From contig NZ_KV917371.1 in NCBI RefSeq assembly GCF_002019635.1, forward strand, positions 1,240,001 to 1,304,000: DNA of 64,000 nt. Reading direction: 5' to 3'. The position numbers and the translations under genes are program-made. This document shows positions 14,734 through 28,023 of the stretch, in pieces. The stretch comes from Metabacillus halosaccharovorans (GTDB taxonomy: Bacteria; Bacillota; Bacilli; Bacillales; Bacillaceae). The stretch's first letter is position 1. Each line of letters opens with the position of its first letter. The notes under the pieces are model-generated. The model was not told the origin of the DNA, made no database searches, and saw only the letters and a program-made list of their open reading frames with translations.

Positions 14734-15909
14734 TTAGTTCATGTTTATTTCTTTTGCTCCATCGCCAACATTCGCTACATAAAAATCAGCCGTTAATCCT
14801 GTTTTTTCGTTATAGCGTTTGCCTACTTCTTGAATGAATTCTTCAATTTTATCATTTTTCACAATCGATACTGTACAACCTCCAAAGCCTGCTCCTGTCA
14901 TTCTTGAGCCGATAACACCTGCTTGGCTAAGGGCTGCTTCTACTAAAGTATCAAGCTCAAAACCGGTTACCTCATAATCATCTCGTAAAGATGTGTGAGA
15001 ATCACACATTAATTGACCAAAGCTTTCAATATCACCTTGTTGAAGTTTTTCAACTGCTAGAATCGTTCTCGCATTTTCATAAACAGCATGTTTTGCACGC
15101 TTTTGATCAACATCGTTTTCAATTAAATGGCGATGTTGTTCAAATTGCTCTGGTGATAAGTCGCCAAGAGATTGAATCGATAATTCCTTTTGTAATTGTG
15201 AAAGAGCACGTTCACATTCCGAGCGTCTTTCATTGTATTTCGAGTCTGCAAGTGTTCTGCGTTTATTTGTGTTGGCAATAACAAGTGAAGCATCCTCAAG
15301 TACTATCGGGCTATATTGATAGTCAAGCGTTTGACAATTTAACAAGATCGCATGGTCTTCTTTTCCCATTCCGATTGCAAATTGATCCATAATGCCACAG
15401 CTAACGCCGATAAATTCATTTTCTGCATGCTGACTCATTTTAACAAGATCCACACTGCTGAACGTTGTTTCCAAGATTGATTGTAAAGCAACTGCTGTAA
15501 CAAGTTCAATAGATGCTGAAGAAGATAATCCCGCACCATTCGGGATATTACCGTAGTATAAAACATCAAATCCTGTTTTAAGCTGATTGCCTCGATCAGT
15601 GAACTCTTTAATCACACCTTTTGGGTAGTTGGCCCAATCATGCTCTTTTTGAAATTCAAGCTGATCCTGAGTTGATAGTTCAATGATTCCTACATTTGGA
15701 AAATTGACCGAGTACAAACGAATAGATTGGTCATTTCTTGGTGCAACTAATGCGTATGTCCCAAACGTTAACGCACATGGAAACACATGACCTCCATTAT
15801 AATCTGTATGTTCTCCTATTAAATTCACTCGGCCTGGCGCAAAAAAAGTGCGTATAGGCTGATCTGTGTTGAATATCTGTTTAAATTGTTGTAGTAATTG
15901 TTCTGTCAT
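14734..15909 (-). CDS. galK: Galactokinase
   Basis: Phosphorylates galactose to galactose-1-phosphate, the committed step. The 391-residue GHMP kinase shows the galactokinase signature [22 protein letters not shown], the ATP-binding loop [13 protein letters not shown], and the C-terminal [17 protein letters not shown]. First gene of the operon; ATG at 15909 behind GAAGGGTGA. A promoter and a cre-like palindrome lie 34-78 bp upstream, and a divergent AraC regulator follows. Confidence 0.96.
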
Positions 15910-18493: not shown

Positions 18494-19408
18494 TCACTTA
18501 TTATTTTTCAATAGTCGTTTATGAATCCATATCGCTGCCTGACATCCATCTGCCATCGCGATCGTCACTTGCTCTGAGTGGGCAATAAGATCTCCTGCTG
18601 CCCATACATTTGTTATATTTGTTTCCTTTGTTCGAGGATTTACAAGGACATGTTTGTTTTCAAGTCTCTCCACACCTAATTGTTTTGCAAGCTCCGAATG
18701 AACAGCATTTCCGCCAAATCCGATAAATCCTTTTTCTCCATGAACGGTTTGTCCATTTTTTAATGTCACACCTTTAAAGTCTGATTCATTCTCAGTGATA
18801 ATCCCAGCAATCTCTTCATTGATAACAGCTATGTTTTTTTGCTTAAGCTCTTTTAATAATGACGGCTCTATTTCTCCATCATGATTAATGAACGTAATCT
18901 TGTCTGTCCAATAGGTAAGAGTCAGCGCCAAATTTGCACCTGTTTTCCCTGACCCTAACAGGAGAACACGCTGATTCCTTACCTCATAGCCATCACAATC
19001 CGGACAAACATAGATGGAAACACCTAAACACGGGTTTATGTTTTTAATCTCGGGTATTCGATCTTTTATTCCTGTGGATAACAAAAGTGTTGTGGATTCA
19101 TAGGTTTTACCTGATTTCGTTTTGACCGTTATTCTTTCTTGATCTTTTTTGGCTTCGATAACATAATCTTTTTTAAATTCAATTCCATACTGTGATGCTT
19201 GTTTCTTCCCCAATTCTCTAAGGGTTTCACCACTTACGCCATCCGGCCACCCCAAAATATTATGATAGCCTCTGCATAAGTTTGACCTTCCATCTTCAGA
19301 ATCAATTACTACTACCTTATGCATATATCTCCCTAATTGAATAGCCGCCTGCAAACCAGCAATTCCTGCCCCAACGATCACACATTCATATGTATTCTTT
19401 GACATCAT
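18494..19408 (-). CDS. Thioredoxin-reductase-like FAD/NAD(P) oxidoreductase
   Basis: A 304-residue two-domain flavoprotein. The N-terminal FAD-binding motif is VGAGIAGLQAAIQLG, the NAD(P) motif LGSGKTGANLALTL follows at about 150, and the C-terminal FAD motif is WAAGDLIAHSEQVTIAMADG. A redox pair CPDC (in YVCPDCDGYE) stands where thioredoxin reductase has CATC, so a disulfide-exchange role is plausible, but the partner is unknown. It is probably not the housekeeping TrxB. Its upstream region holds the DnaA-box cluster. Confidence 0.78.
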   Translation of the reverse strand: MMSKNTYECVIVGAGIAGLQAAIQLGRYMHKVVVIDSEDGRSNLCRGYHNILGWPDGVSGETLRELGKKQASQYGIEFKKDYVIEAKKDQERITVKTKSGKTYESTTLLLSTGIKDRIPEIKNINPCLGVSIYVCPDCDGYEVRNQRVLLLGSGKTGANLALTLTYWTDKITFINHDGEIEPSLLKELKQKNIAVINEEIAGIITENESDFKGVTLKNGQTVHGEKGFIGFGGNAVHSELAKQLGVERLENKHVLVNPRTKETNITNVWAAGDLIAHSEQVTIAMADGCQAAIWIHKRLLKNNK

Positions 19409-19470
19409 GACACGTCCTTTGAAGTAGATACTACTTATCGTGCGTCAAAGTAAAATTGTTCATTCAAATA

Positions 19471-19526: not shown

Positions 19527-19748
19527 TGTGGATAACTACGCTTTCATTTGCGAATTGTTGATATTTCTTGAGGTATTTACCTTTTATAACGTAAAAATTT
19601 AGATATTAACAGCTTATTATCCAGTTAACAACAACTTATCCACAAAAGTTATCAACATATCCACAATTTCTATCCACATTTTGTGTGGGTACATTCGTTC
19701 GCCACAATATATATAGGACTATTATCTCCTATAAACAAGTTATTCACA
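19527..19748. promoter_or_regulatory. DnaA-box cluster
   Basis: Sites resembling TTATCCACA: 19527-19535 (perfect, minus strand), 19636-19644 (perfect, plus), 19649-19657 TTATCAACA, 19657-19665 ATATCCACA, 19670-19678 CTATCCACA (each one mismatch, plus) and 19740-19748 TTATTCACA (fits the relaxed TTWTNCACA). Four direct boxes occupy 43 bp. The 367-bp gap holds no gene. It resembles the DnaA-box clusters near the B. subtilis origin that modulate initiation. Confidence 0.75.
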
Positions 19749-19776
19749 GGGCGTTTTGTCGTAACTAAAGTTCTCC

Positions 19777-20682
19777 TTACGAAGTACGAAATTGACCTCC
19801 ATTTACGTGTAATACCTGACCTGTAACATAGCGTGAATCATCTGATGCAAGATACACATATGCAGGTGCAAGCTCAAAAGGTTGCCCCGGTCTTTTCATT
19901 TCCGAATCAGAACCAAAGGTTGATACATTTTTCGCTGAAAAACTCGCCGGAATTAACGGAGTCCAGATCGGACCAGGTGCTACACCGTTCACCCTTATTC
20001 CTTTATCCACAAGTGACAAGGATAAAGATCTTGTAAATGTTGTGATCGCTCCTTTTGTTGCAGAATAATCAATTAAAGTTTTATTTCCTTCATACGCTGT
20101 TACGGATGTTGTATTAATGATGGAGCTCCCCTTTTGTAAATAAGGCAAGCTTGCTTTTACCATGTAAAAAAAGGCAAAAATATTCGTTTTAAACGTTCTT
20201 TCCAGTTGCTCGGCCGAAATATCCAAAATACTTTTCTGCACAAATTGTACAGCATGATTATTTACCACAATGTCCAAGCGGCCAAAGGTTTCAATGGCCA
20301 ATTTTACAACTTCATAAGACGTTTGCTCCCGGGACAGATCTCCTGAAAATAATAAGCATTTTCCACCCAACTCCTCAATTCTGTGCTTCGTTGTCCTGGC
20401 ATCTTGATGCTCATTATAATAAGGAATCACAATTGCAGCTCCCTCTTTCGCAAATGCATAGGCAACTGCTCTTCCGATGCCACTATCTCCTCCGGTTATA
20501 ATCGCCACCTTATTCTTTAACTTTCCACTTCCCTTATACCCTTCCCATTCTGATATCGGCGGAGGATTCATTTCATATTCAAAACCAGGTTGGCGATTTT
20601 GATGTTGCGGAGGAAATACAATCGGCTGCATCTTTGTTTGTTGTTTTTGACCATAATACGGATAAACAGGATATGGATACAT
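19777..20682 (-). CDS. Short-chain dehydrogenase/reductase, general-stress type
   Basis: A 301-residue SDR of the extended-N-terminus group that includes Bacillus general stress dehydrogenases (YdaD/YhdF type). After a Tyr/Pro/Gln-rich leader (MYPYPVYPYYG) comes ITGGDSGIGRAVAYAFAKEGA, then NNHAVQF in place of the usual NNAG, the catalytic Ser and Tyr-x-x-x-Lys in NTTSVTAYEGNKTLIDYSATKGA, and NGVAPGPIWTPLIP. Substrate unknown. The ATG at 20682 behind GGGAGGG is preferred to the upstream in-frame start. Confidence 0.82.
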   Translation of the reverse strand: MYPYPVYPYYGQKQQTKMQPIVFPPQHQNRQPGFEYEMNPPPISEWEGYKGSGKLKNKVAIITGGDSGIGRAVAYAFAKEGAAIVIPYYNEHQDARTTKHRIEELGGKCLLFSGDLSREQTSYEVVKLAIETFGRLDIVVNNHAVQFVQKSILDISAEQLERTFKTNIFAFFYMVKASLPYLQKGSSIINTTSVTAYEGNKTLIDYSATKGAITTFTRSLSLSLVDKGIRVNGVAPGPIWTPLIPASFSAKNVSTFGSDSEMKRPGQPFELAPAYVYLASDDSRYVTGQVLHVNGGQFRTS

Positions 20683-20745
20683 GAACGGCCCTCCCTCATT
20701 CAATTACTTCGCTTAACTCTATTCACAAATAGCTTGTAAAAATAA

Positions 20746-22234: not shown

Positions 22235-22984
22235 TTACCGCTTATTAAATCCTTTTTTCTCCACAAATTCTTTCATATACATTCTAGTCGGTCTAGATAA
22301 TAAGCGTGCCATTTGACCAGTCCATGTGTCTTTTCTTTCTCCATTTGTACGCTGTTCATAATACGCAGAAATTTGTTGATCATATTCTTTTAGTTGACTT
22401 AAATAGCTTGCCTGATCTTGCTGATACTCATCTTCATGGTACACATGTTCAAACGGAAGTCTTTGCTTTTGATCCGGCTCCTGTGCCGGGTATCCCACTG
22501 CAATACCGAAAAGCGGCAAAACATGTGAAGGCGTTTTTAATAAACTCGACACTTCAGATAGTTGGTTTCTTAAACCTCCAATATAAACCGCTCCAAGCTC
22601 CATTGATTCAGCAGCTAGCACAGCATTTTGCGCAGCAAGAGCCGCATCAATTACAGCAACCATAAACTTTTCAGTACTCTCGAGGATTTCACTTGCATCC
22701 TGATGATATTGATCAGCAATTAACTGATGTCTATGTAAATCTGCACAAAAGACAAAGAAATGGCCATTTTCCGCTACATAGTTTTGCCCTCCGGCTAACT
22801 CTGCTAATTTCCGCTTTTTCTCTTTATCTTTCACACCAATTATAGAATATGCCTGAATATAGCTTGAAGTTGATGCAGCTTGGGCACTTTGAACAATCAG
22901 TTTAATCTGTTCATCTGATAATATTTTATCCTCAAATTTGCGGATGGAACGATGATTTAAAATCGTTTTAATCACATCATTCAT
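22235..22984 (-). CDS. nfrA: NADPH-dependent nitro/flavin reductase NfrA
   Basis: FMN-dependent oxidoreductase of the NfsA/FRP family, 249 aa, closely following the B. subtilis NfrA (YwcG) sequence pattern: NHRSIRKFEDKILSDEQI, SAQAASTSSYIQAYSIIGV, NGHFFVFCADLHRHQ, VLPLFGIAVGYPAQEP and the C-terminal YYEQRTNGERKDTW. It reduces nitro compounds, quinones or free flavin. ATG at 22984 behind AAGGAGG. Its nearness to ywcE and qox matches the B. subtilis ywc region. Confidence 0.92.
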   Translation of the reverse strand: MNDVIKTILNHRSIRKFEDKILSDEQIKLIVQSAQAASTSSYIQAYSIIGVKDKEKKRKLAELAGGQNYVAENGHFFVFCADLHRHQLIADQYHQDASEILESTEKFMVAVIDAALAAQNAVLAAESMELGAVYIGGLRNQLSEVSSLLKTPSHVLPLFGIAVGYPAQEPDQKQRLPFEHVYHEDEYQQDQASYLSQLKEYDQQISAYYEQRTNGERKDTWTGQMARLLSRPTRMYMKEFVEKKGFNKR

Positions 22985-26079: not shown

Positions 26080-28023
26080 TTAAGCACCTCGCAATTCTGA
26101 TTCAGTTTCTTCTACTTCTTTAGCAGTAATATATCGACCATGATCTTTTTCAAACGAACGAAGAGTCATAAAGACGAAAATTCCAATCGTTGTAATAATT
26201 GCCGGAATCCATAGACTAAAGATCAGCGAGAAGCCCCACGCAAAGAAGAAACAACTCATAATGAAAGGCATTCCACTGTTATTAGGCATATGAATTTTTT
26301 CAATTTTACCTTTAAATAGTTCATGACCATGTTTCTTCGCATCCCAGAATGCTTCACTAGTTTTTACTTCAGGTACAATCGCGAAGTTATATTCTGGAAC
26401 CGGAGTGTGTGTAGCCCACTCAAGTGTACGCGCATCCCATGGATCTGAACCGATGTTTCTAGGTGCATAACGAATACTGTAGTAGATGTTATATACAATT
26501 AAGGCAAATCCGATCATCATAATTGCAGCTCCGACAAATGAAACCATATTTAATGGACCGAATCCAGTTGATTCTGAATATGTGAAGCTACGACGAACTT
26601 GACCATCTAAACCAGTAATATACATTGGGATAAATGCTAGCACGAATCCGATAGAAAGTAACCATGCTGTCCATTTCCCAATTTTTTCGTTCAACATAAA
26701 GCCGAACATTTTTGGCCAGTAATATGTTAATCCAGCAAGCATAGCATAAACTACACCCGGAATAATAACATTGTGGAAGTGAGCAACTAAGAACATTGTA
26801 TTATGGTATTGGTAGTCAGCTGCAGACATCGCAAGCATAACCCCTGTTACCCCACCCAATGTGAAAAGCGGGATGAAAAGCATTGAATAAAGCATTGGCG
26901 TTGTCATGCGAATCTTACCTTTTCGCAGCGTGAACAGCCAGTTAAAGATCTTAACACCTGTCGGTACAGCAATCGCCATTGTTGTAATAGAGAAAATACT
27001 GTTTGTAAACGCACCTTGACCCATTGTAAAGAAGTGATGCGCCCATACTAAGAAAGAAAGAAGTGAAATTAACACCATAGACCAAACCATTGACTTATAG
27101 CCGTATAAGTTACGTCCTGAGAATGTTGAAATAATCTCACTGTAAAGACCAAATGCAGGTAAAATCAAGATATATACTTCAGGATGTCCCCAAACCCAGA
27201 AAAGGTTCGCCCAAAGCATATCCATACCACCGTTGCCTAATGTAAAGAAGTGAGTACCAAATAGGCGGTCCATTGTTCCCATCGCCAACGCTACTGTTAA
27301 AACAGGGAAAGCGAAAACGATGATTAAGTTTGCAATAAGTGCTGACCATGTGAACATTGGCATCTTCATTAAAGTCATACCAGGTGCTCTCATTTTCATT
27401 ATTGTCGTTATAAAGTTAATACCCGTCAGCAGGGTACCGATACCGGCGATCTGTATCGCAATCATATAATAATTCGTTCCAACAGATTTACTGAATTCCT
27501 CACTAGCCAGTGGGAAATACGAAGTCCAACCTGCGTCAGGTGATCCACCTACAACGAATGAAATGTTAAATAACATAGCTCCCATAAAGAACAACCAGAA
27601 GCTTAATGCATTTAGACGTGGAAATGCAACATCACGCGCTCCAATTTGCAGCGGAACAACCAAGTTCATGAAGAACATGATAAATGGCATTGCCATAAAG
27701 AGAATCATCACAACCCCGTGAGTTGTAAAAATCTCATTATAATGCTGTGAATCTAGTAATGTATTATCAGGAACGGCAAGCTGTGCACGCAACATTATTG
27801 CGTCAACGCCACCGCGGAATAACATAACTAATGCAGAAATTAAATACATAATACCGATACGCTTATGGTCAACAGTCGTTAACCATTCACGCCATAAATA
27901 ACCCCATTTTTTAAAGTATGTTAATCCAGCAAGGATGGCAATTGTTGTTAATCCAATCGCAACCATTGATGCATAGATCGCAAAACTAGGATGAGGCACG
28001 GCAAAACGATCAAAGAAATCCAT
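26080..28023 (-). CDS. qoxB: Quinol oxidase subunit I (cytochrome aa3, haem-copper)
   Basis: Catalytic subunit, 647 aa, with about 14-15 membrane helices; reduces O2 to water and pumps protons. His102 in FTTHGVVM is a low-spin haem ligand; His280 and Tyr284 in WVWGHPEVYILILPAFG are the CuB ligand and cross-linked tyrosine; WAHHFFTMGQ holds the two further CuB histidines; VAHFHNVIIPG holds the haem pair. The charged N-terminal helix and long C-terminus fit the quinol-oxidase branch. ATG at 28023 behind AAAGGAG. Confidence 0.97.
   Translation of the reverse strand: MDFFDRFAVPHPSFAIYASMVAIGLTTIAILAGLTYFKKWGYLWREWLTTVDHKRIGIMYLISALVMLFRGGVDAIMLRAQLAVPDNTLLDSQHYNEIFTTHGVVMILFMAMPFIMFFMNLVVPLQIGARDVAFPRLNALSFWLFFMGAMLFNISFVVGGSPDAGWTSYFPLASEEFSKSVGTNYYMIAIQIAGIGTLLTGINFITTIMKMRAPGMTLMKMPMFTWSALIANLIIVFAFPVLTVALAMGTMDRLFGTHFFTLGNGGMDMLWANLFWVWGHPEVYILILPAFGLYSEIISTFSGRNLYGYKSMVWSMVLISLLSFLVWAHHFFTMGQGAFTNSIFSITTMAIAVPTGVKIFNWLFTLRKGKIRMTTPMLYSMLFIPLFTLGGVTGVMLAMSAADYQYHNTMFLVAHFHNVIIPGVVYAMLAGLTYYWPKMFGFMLNEKIGKWTAWLLSIGFVLAFIPMYITGLDGQVRRSFTYSESTGFGPLNMVSFVGAAIMMIGFALIVYNIYYSIRYAPRNIGSDPWDARTLEWATHTPVPEYNFAIVPEVKTSEAFWDAKKHGHELFKGKIEKIHMPNNSGMPFIMSCFFFAWGFSLIFSLWIPAIITTIGIFVFMTLRSFEKDHGRYITAKEVEETESELRGA

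Follow-up and report, generated by a model that had tools for sequence, protein, structure and literature searches.

A conserved DnaA-box module upstream of dnaA in Metabacillus halosaccharovorans, a probable counterpart of the Bacillus subtilis ywcI/vpr cluster

The cluster and its chromosomal setting

The window analysed here is a 64 000-nucleotide stretch (C1:1240001–1304000) of the 5.4-Mb genome of Metabacillus halosaccharovorans. Within it, a gene-free gap bounded by the start (19408) of an FAD/NAD(P) oxidoreductase gene and the stop end (19777) of an SDR family oxidoreductase gene carries a dense cluster of putative DnaA boxes (table 1). The original prediction called the first of these genes thioredoxin-reductase-like; the likeness stands, but the product misses the thioredoxin-reductase cut-off (137.8 vs 343 bits). 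It is 96% identical to a protein of Metabacillus niabensis EaN21-8. Just upstream of this gene, at 19421–19438, lies a palindrome, GAAGTAGATACTACTT, perhaps the operator of a local repressor.

The dnaA gene, whose product has all three Pfam DnaA domains, is found at C1:1456641, 197 kb to the right of the cluster, which lies upstream of it. With dnaA so distant and carrying box clusters of its own, the cluster is not the standard origin, as had been proposed. In one of the other genomes surveyed (G002), about 20 weak Bac_DnaA-domain matches were seen, several with the same score; these are probably copies of an IstB-type transposition ATPase.

Table 1. Coordinates of the DnaA-box module, its component sites and the genes around it (window positions).
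Feature	Position	Strand	Basis or remark
Galactokinase, synteny marker	14734–15909	−	profile match
FAD/NAD(P) oxidoreductase, thioredoxin-reductase-like	18494–19408	−	profile match; 5′ end towards element
DnaA-box cluster as first described	19527–19748		six boxes, ≤1 mismatch
Outlying DnaA box, exact match to TTATCCACA	19527–19535	−	motif scan
Conserved DnaA-box module	19591–19753	+	collinear with yyzF–rlmH region, profile positions 1–153 of 170
Weak box ATATTAACA	19603–19611	+	2 mismatches to TTATNCACA; in rlmH start-codon register
Weak box TTAACAACA	19625–19633	+	2 mismatches
DnaA box, exact TTATCCACA	19636–19644	+	motif scan
DnaA box TTATCAACA	19649–19657	+	motif scan; 1 mismatch
DnaA box ATATCCACA	19657–19665	+	motif scan; 1 mismatch; one base in common with the 19649 box
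DnaA box CTATCCACA	19670–19678	+	motif scan; 1 mismatch
Weak box GTACCCACA, inverted	19684–19692	−	2 mismatches
yyzF C-terminus fossil register	19694–19711	−	codons YIVAN; includes weak box TTCGCCACA at 19698
DnaA box TTATTCACA	19740–19748	+	motif scan; 1 mismatch, fits TTATNCACA
SDR family oxidoreductase	19777–20703	−	profile match; 3′ end towards element
NfsA-type nitroreductase, synteny marker	22235–22984	−	NF008033, above cut-off
QoxB, ywc-region synteny marker	26080–28023	−	TIGR02882, above cut-off

All six boxes of the original prediction are present where it placed them, with no or one mismatch in 222 bp, and the starts of the four direct repeats among them are 13, 8 and 13 bp apart, spanning 43 bp. 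The box at 19636 is exact in 15 of 18 aligned relatives of the genus, while the one at 19527 reads TGTGGATAA in 13 and TGTGGGTAA in five of 20 genus loci (own locus counted). The isolated flanking boxes that had also been described exist as exact matches at 19073 (minus strand) and 20003 (plus strand), each within the codons of a flanking gene; they are exact in 7/17 and 7/15 aligned genus loci, respectively, and probably lie outside the element. At a tolerance of two mismatches to TTATNCACA, 11 sites fall within the 163-bp module, 10 of them on the plus strand, against a mean of 2.4 per 163 bp in window DNA; other tiles reach at most nine, and no 163-bp stretch of the window exceeds 11. Two-mismatch sites are frequent in DNA this rich in AT, which leaves the weak sites uncertain.

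The density of the stronger sites is well above chance, as had been claimed. The maximum per 222 bp is six, compared with one (75 shuffles), two (216) or three (9) in 300 dinucleotide shuffles of the window, and the maximum per 43 bp is four, compared with no more than two. Across the window there are 34 sites with ≤1 mismatch (shuffle mean 20.6), a total reached by one of 100 shuffles; it is thus only mildly raised, and the clustering is the notable signal. These shuffles, the matches in all 20 genus relatives searched and the constant position of the element make a chance grouping, or the remnant of a plasmid or prophage origin, scarcely credible, and nothing was found that speaks for either. 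A plasmid collection produced four matches only, all of them short (records of 410, 476 and 569 kb and 2.9 Mb); both of those inspected lie at rlmH.

Genome-wide, exact TTATCCACA occurs 115 times, compared with 90 for the reversed control, and pairs of the form TTATNCACA-N1-31-TTATNCACA occur six times at four places, compared with once in the control. The window cluster is absent from those six pairs because its tight boxes carry mismatches. Among the matches listed, dense DnaA-box clusters are few in this genome. Other clusters of exact boxes among these matches lie at tsaC/ywlC (C1:1174.4 kb) and tsaD/gcp (2648.5 kb), both named by Pfam, at rlmH/yydA (1421.1 kb, the gene identified by likeness to the annotated RlmH of locus L003) and at oriC. 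The gene at a further cluster (1702.1 kb) matches Pfam only as HAD-like and is presumably yqeG. Two more clusters of three exact boxes each, both over 1.1 Mb from dnaA, lie beside a peptidoglycan amidase gene (C1:2950781–2951017, L123) and between esterase-looking and GNAT-looking genes (C1:2609455–2609599, L121). According to Table 1 of PMC4447404, tsaC/ywlC, tsaD/gcp, rlmH/yydA and yqeG are all neighbours of B. subtilis clusters; the regions in that table include no counterpart of the clusters at 2609.5 and 2950.8 kb.

Conservation, position and synteny

DNA of the gap was matched in 47 of 59 relatives, including 20/20 of the same genus; those from outside the window's family, where they could be placed, proved mostly to be the rlmH homologue treated below. 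The 13 genus loci that carry both the FAD and the SDR gene match the window with a mean identity of 0.94 at 19631–19710, 0.89 at 19591–19718 and 0.84 over the module, compared with 0.76 for SDR codons and 0.70 for FAD-gene codons. The gap outside the element is far less conserved (0.49 in the left 182 bp between element and FAD gene, 0.32 on the right). An earlier profile of 17 loci, which omitted the near-identical L086 and L087 and the cut locus L091, had given SDR bins of 0.63–0.77, because three loci without the SDR gene lowered them; the element leads in conservation in the 13-locus profile also.

On the left, the element borders on the FAD gene in 19 of 20 genus loci; a contig end cuts the remaining one. 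The SDR gene is the right neighbour in 16/20 and is absent from three others in which the element is nevertheless in place. Elsewhere, the element stands beside a SacT/LicT-type antiterminator gene (Pfam PRD and CAT) or beside genes that we take to be vpr, a thiD-type kinase, a nitroreductase or qox genes. Conservation thus shows that the element itself, rather than any one neighbouring gene, is what selection keeps.

The suggestion that DnaA could regulate the adjacent redox gene is weakened by this pattern, because the element persists in genera with quite different neighbouring genes and the stretch between element and FAD gene is so poorly conserved. In its broader form, the cluster would mainly be a transcriptional operator through which DnaA represses or activates the FAD gene (or the SDR gene) according to replication status, and we consider this distinctly unlikely. 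The FAD gene does turn its 5′ end towards the element wherever it was seen in the genus, but the SDR gene presents only its 3′ end, three species keep the element with no SDR gene, and the region has about as many promoter-like matches as chance would give (7 vs 5.6). Repression by DnaA of vpr and of ywcI–sacT, which appears to occur at the homologous B. subtilis site (PMC4447404), speaks for such a role; the constancy of the module beside differing neighbours speaks against it as the main one.

The position relative to the origin is also constant. In 16 of 16 genomes (circular closure assumed in seven), the ywc-type element lies upstream of dnaA, on the strand of dnaA and 124–290 kb away, which, like the 197 kb in the window's own genome, is origin-proximal but outside oriC. 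The original prediction had proposed a counterpart of the DnaA-box cluster in the ywc region of B. subtilis, and the surroundings agree: the cluster is enclosed by galactokinase, an NfsA-type nitroreductase and QoxB, and relatives add a Vpr-like neighbour. We take these galactokinase, nitroreductase and qox surroundings to be those of ywcI/vpr in B. subtilis, with the nitroreductase presumably in the nfrA1/ywcG slot. In three Bacillus-group genomes (loci L132, L220 and L223 of G031, G028 and G034), the homologous element immediately precedes the 5′ end of a Vpr-like gene, whose product at L223 is a subtilase by Pfam. An intergenic box cluster beyond chance density, proximal to oriC and, by gene order and the three Bacillus-group genomes, in synteny with the known ywcI/vpr cluster, would belong with the Bacillus DnaA-box clusters outside oriC, and its identity as the ywc counterpart is supported by both gene order and homology. 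It is not adjacent to dnaA and does not belong to oriC.

In B. subtilis, the sites ‘upstream of ywcI; upstream of vpr’ are among the strongest DnaA regions outside oriC in the account of Smith and Grossman (PMC4447404), whose abstract states that binding in vivo was seen only at the eight strongest regions. Table 1 of that paper gives 11 sites by the authors' matrix and apparent Kd values of 0.13 µM for ATP-DnaA and 0.17 µM for ADP-DnaA, the lowest in the table. The Metabacillus element resembles this region in being intergenic, in lying upstream of dnaA, in its 11 sites (here with ≤2 mismatches), in its nfrA1–qox–gal surroundings and in the homologous sequence beside a Vpr-like gene in the three Bacillus-group genomes; it differs in its immediate neighbours, which are the FAD oxidoreductase and SDR genes instead of vpr and ywcI. 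Dense DnaA boxes are likewise a feature of Bacillus oriC (dnaA promoter and dnaA–dnaN boxes), but the window element has no adjacent dnaA, and the oriC of the same genome, 197 kb off, scores at most 9.7 bits with the profile of the module introduced below.

A collinear module at yyzF–rlmH

A module model built from 29 sequences of both types (ywc and rlmH), using sequence only, matched 291 of the 299 genomes sampled from the order. In the class, 116/299 genomes were matched; 28 of these belong to the window's order and many of the others are weak matches. At 26 of the best 30 loci of the order, the module begins with the rlmH start codon, and at rlmH loci the module fills the space between rlmH and yyzF, which encodes a CxxH/CxxC protein. 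A profile of 56 rlmH loci, all from outside the window's genus, matched the window element with 90.7 bits (E 7e-28, profile positions 1–153), compared with 45.7 bits for the rlmH cluster of the same genome and no more than 9.7 bits for its tsaC, yqeG, tsaD, 2609-kb and 2950-kb clusters and oriC.

How much of this match is owed to the boxes was gauged by shuffling. The element alone scores 88.4 bits; with the 66 bases outside the 11 sites shuffled, the mean falls to 48 bits (maximum 64 in 500 shuffles), and with those 66 bases kept and the sites scrambled it falls to −7 bits. When every site with ≤3 mismatches is kept (129 of 163 bases, 34 shuffled), the shuffles average 69 bits and reach 84.8. 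The likeness between ywc and rlmH copies therefore exceeds their shared boxes, which nonetheless carry much of it.

Traces of the coding ends survive at the ywc address. Translated from the minus strand, the right block gives [YD][IL]V[AG]N, as do the last codons of yyzF, in all 25 readable copies among 26 of the ywc type, and no yyzF gene was found at these copies. The rlmH start register reads GTT in 13 and GTG in 11 of the 26 (two unaligned), followed by Asn-Ile-stop in 12 of 14 readable copies. In the window, the rlmH start register lies at about 19599–19610, where it reads GTT AAT ATC TAA on the minus strand at the weak box, and the yyzF register continues after YIVAN with E, where about half of the rlmH loci carry a stop. 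A LexA site was considered for the right block, which often reads G[AT]A[CT]-N4-[GA]TTC, and rejected. The window has GTAC-N4-GTTC, no position of the element is within one mismatch of the LexA box CGAACNNNNGTTCG, and the LexA pattern occurs 40 times per strand genome-wide, compared with 133 in the reversed control; the block is better explained by the C-terminal yyzF codons.

Two features of the yyzF–rlmH loci may be recorded here. A DnaA box, TTGTGGATAA, is kept inside yyzF codons in 21/21 rlmH loci of the genus (L192–L212), so that protein and DnaA sites overlap. At L226 (G114:C1:3605500–3615500), about 4.3 kb of DNA with an ORF of 773 residues separates the two halves of the module, and profile positions 27–77 have a match in either half, so that the array is partly duplicated.

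These comparisons suggest that the ywc cluster stems from an ancient duplication or relocation of the yyzF–rlmH cluster; on the simplest reading, the former coding bases would have been kept since they serve DnaA. Three points favour rlmH as the source and ywc as the copy: the module is order-wide and at rlmH in most of its best loci, it is present in further orders of the class, and the fossils derive from codons of rlmH and yyzF. A tree of 165 columns, in which the ywc copies need two changes and a single grouping is not rejected (p-AU 0.58), is compatible with a single ywc origin and too weak as proof. The idea that the ywc copy is confined to the window's family was dropped, as non-rlmH copies also occur in G066, G068, G108, G139 and G165 (families f32 and f34), near genes that we take to be qox, nitroreductase or galE-type genes. 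A limited literature search found no description of the shared module and its two addresses.

Selection by DnaA for the same long sequence at both places, in other words convergence, could also yield extended identity, and both are DnaA arrays whose sites alone preserve much of the score, the shuffles that keep ≤3-mismatch sites coming close to the intact element. We nevertheless regard convergence as improbable, in view of the collinear match over 163 bp, the yyzF codons persisting where no yyzF was seen, and the very low profile scores of five other clusters and oriC in the same genome. Common descent remains our reading of the two clusters. The B. subtilis yydA (rlmH)/yyzF cluster shares with the window element the collinear, order-wide module with its rlmH start and yyzF end registers; unlike the window element, it overlaps the yyzF and rlmH coding ends, lies about 30–85 kb from dnaA where measured, and has a box core further from canonical in the 32 genomes with both copies.

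In those genomes, the 45-bp box core is nearer canonical at ywc in 32/32 (median identity 0.89 vs 0.60 at rlmH), with a near tie in G022 (0.82 vs 0.80); the 32 were picked for a detected canonical ywc-type copy, so degenerate ywc copies would be missed, and 21 belong to one genus, three of them near-identical. Nine further genomes with a ywc-type or likely copy lie outside the set. At 22 rlmH loci without a known ywc copy, from which the canonical core was itself derived and some of which were checked for second copies, the median core identity is 0.91. Drifted rlmH clusters at L221, L225, L230, L232, L234 and L236 have a head-to-head pair of the TTATCCACA-NN-TGTGGATA type, which replaces the canonical same-facing row.

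Scores for the whole module are less clear-cut. In 30 genomes from other families, 27 of which gave several matches to the module model, no two matches in one genome exceeded 60 bits; the same model gave two above 75 bits in each of G023, G027 and G030, all of the window's family. Scored by the rlmH profile, G031, G028, G066 and G068 have the higher value at rlmH and the lower at ywc, partly through the coding ends of the rlmH copy. Nine genomes (the seven just named plus G139 and G108) have two good copies by whole-module score. One canonical copy per genome is thus a pattern that, in these alignments, holds for the box core and not for the whole module.

Titration and other possible roles

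The best-supported explanation, with a probability of about 0.82, takes the element for the equivalent in Metabacillus of the ywcI/vpr cluster and for a putative DnaA-titrating array that would hold back re-initiation; titration is favoured because the cluster is the syntenic counterpart of the B. subtilis one. The comparisons directly display the array, its conservation beyond the boxes, its fixed side and orientation relative to dnaA, its independence of neighbours and its homology with yyzF–rlmH. Beyond these, the non-coding array of strong and weak putative DnaA sites, mostly same-facing and upstream of dnaA, would have arisen as a copy of the yyzF–rlmH cluster. DnaA would most likely fill it cooperatively and largely regardless of the bound nucleotide. 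Being copied soon after initiation would strengthen titration, and the copied array would withdraw DnaA from oriC and so hold back re-initiation. Deletion of six such clusters in B. subtilis leads to early initiation (Okumura 2012, as cited in PMC5295017 and PMC13220808). Titration by the window element is plausible.

It is not obvious why the spacing and the non-box bases should be conserved in a pure sink. Both features, together with the order-wide matches of the module model and the ywc copy being nearer the canonical core wherever the two addresses were compared, would suit a specific DnaA nucleoprotein switch, similar to datA or DARS in altering the nucleotide state or the oligomer form of DnaA and present as one canonical-core copy per chromosome, in place of a passive sink. 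Like the window element, the E. coli loci datA and DARS are arrays of DnaA boxes in non-coding DNA at a distance from oriC; they regulate initiation, as the window element would, but they change the nucleotide state of DnaA. The B. subtilis region has almost no nucleotide preference (0.13 vs 0.17 µM, PMC4447404), and such near-equal affinities for ATP-DnaA and ADP-DnaA argue for a sink; moreover, datA requires IHF, which B. subtilis lacks according to PMC5295017 and PMC13220808, no site for an architectural co-factor such as IHF or Fis came to notice in the element, and nine genomes have two good whole-module copies. A switch of this kind is thus unlikely.

We would still entertain, as doubtful, a wider proposal in which the Bacillales keep one canonical-core DnaA complex of about 125–160 bp as an active DnaA regulator at either of two addresses: yyzF–rlmH, about 30–85 kb from dnaA, or, following an ancient duplication, ywc/qox, about 120–290 kb from it. 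The rlmH and yyzF codons would survive at ywc as their bases are DnaA contacts, and the fixed architecture would make the complex an active regulator of the state or assembly of DnaA, the functional Bacillota counterpart of datA/DARS and no mere sink. Its probability was set lower because some genomes have two good whole-module scores.

DnaA binding at the B. subtilis ywcI/vpr cluster, one of six clusters outside oriC, is already known. What appears new in these comparisons is the conserved unit of about 160 bp at 19591–19753, collinear with the yyzF–rlmH cluster, and the two-address pattern. By conservation and synteny, the B. subtilis DnaA-binding site would thus extend to Metabacillus. According to a 2026 review (PMC13220808), whether B. 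subtilis possesses regulators that balance DnaA-ATP and DnaA-ADP is still an open question, and the strict architecture of the element makes it a candidate worth testing for such a regulator. The two homologous clusters, between which the canonical array has apparently moved, offer natural variants for study, which bear on whether DNA elements of the Bacillota may actively control DnaA beyond binding it.
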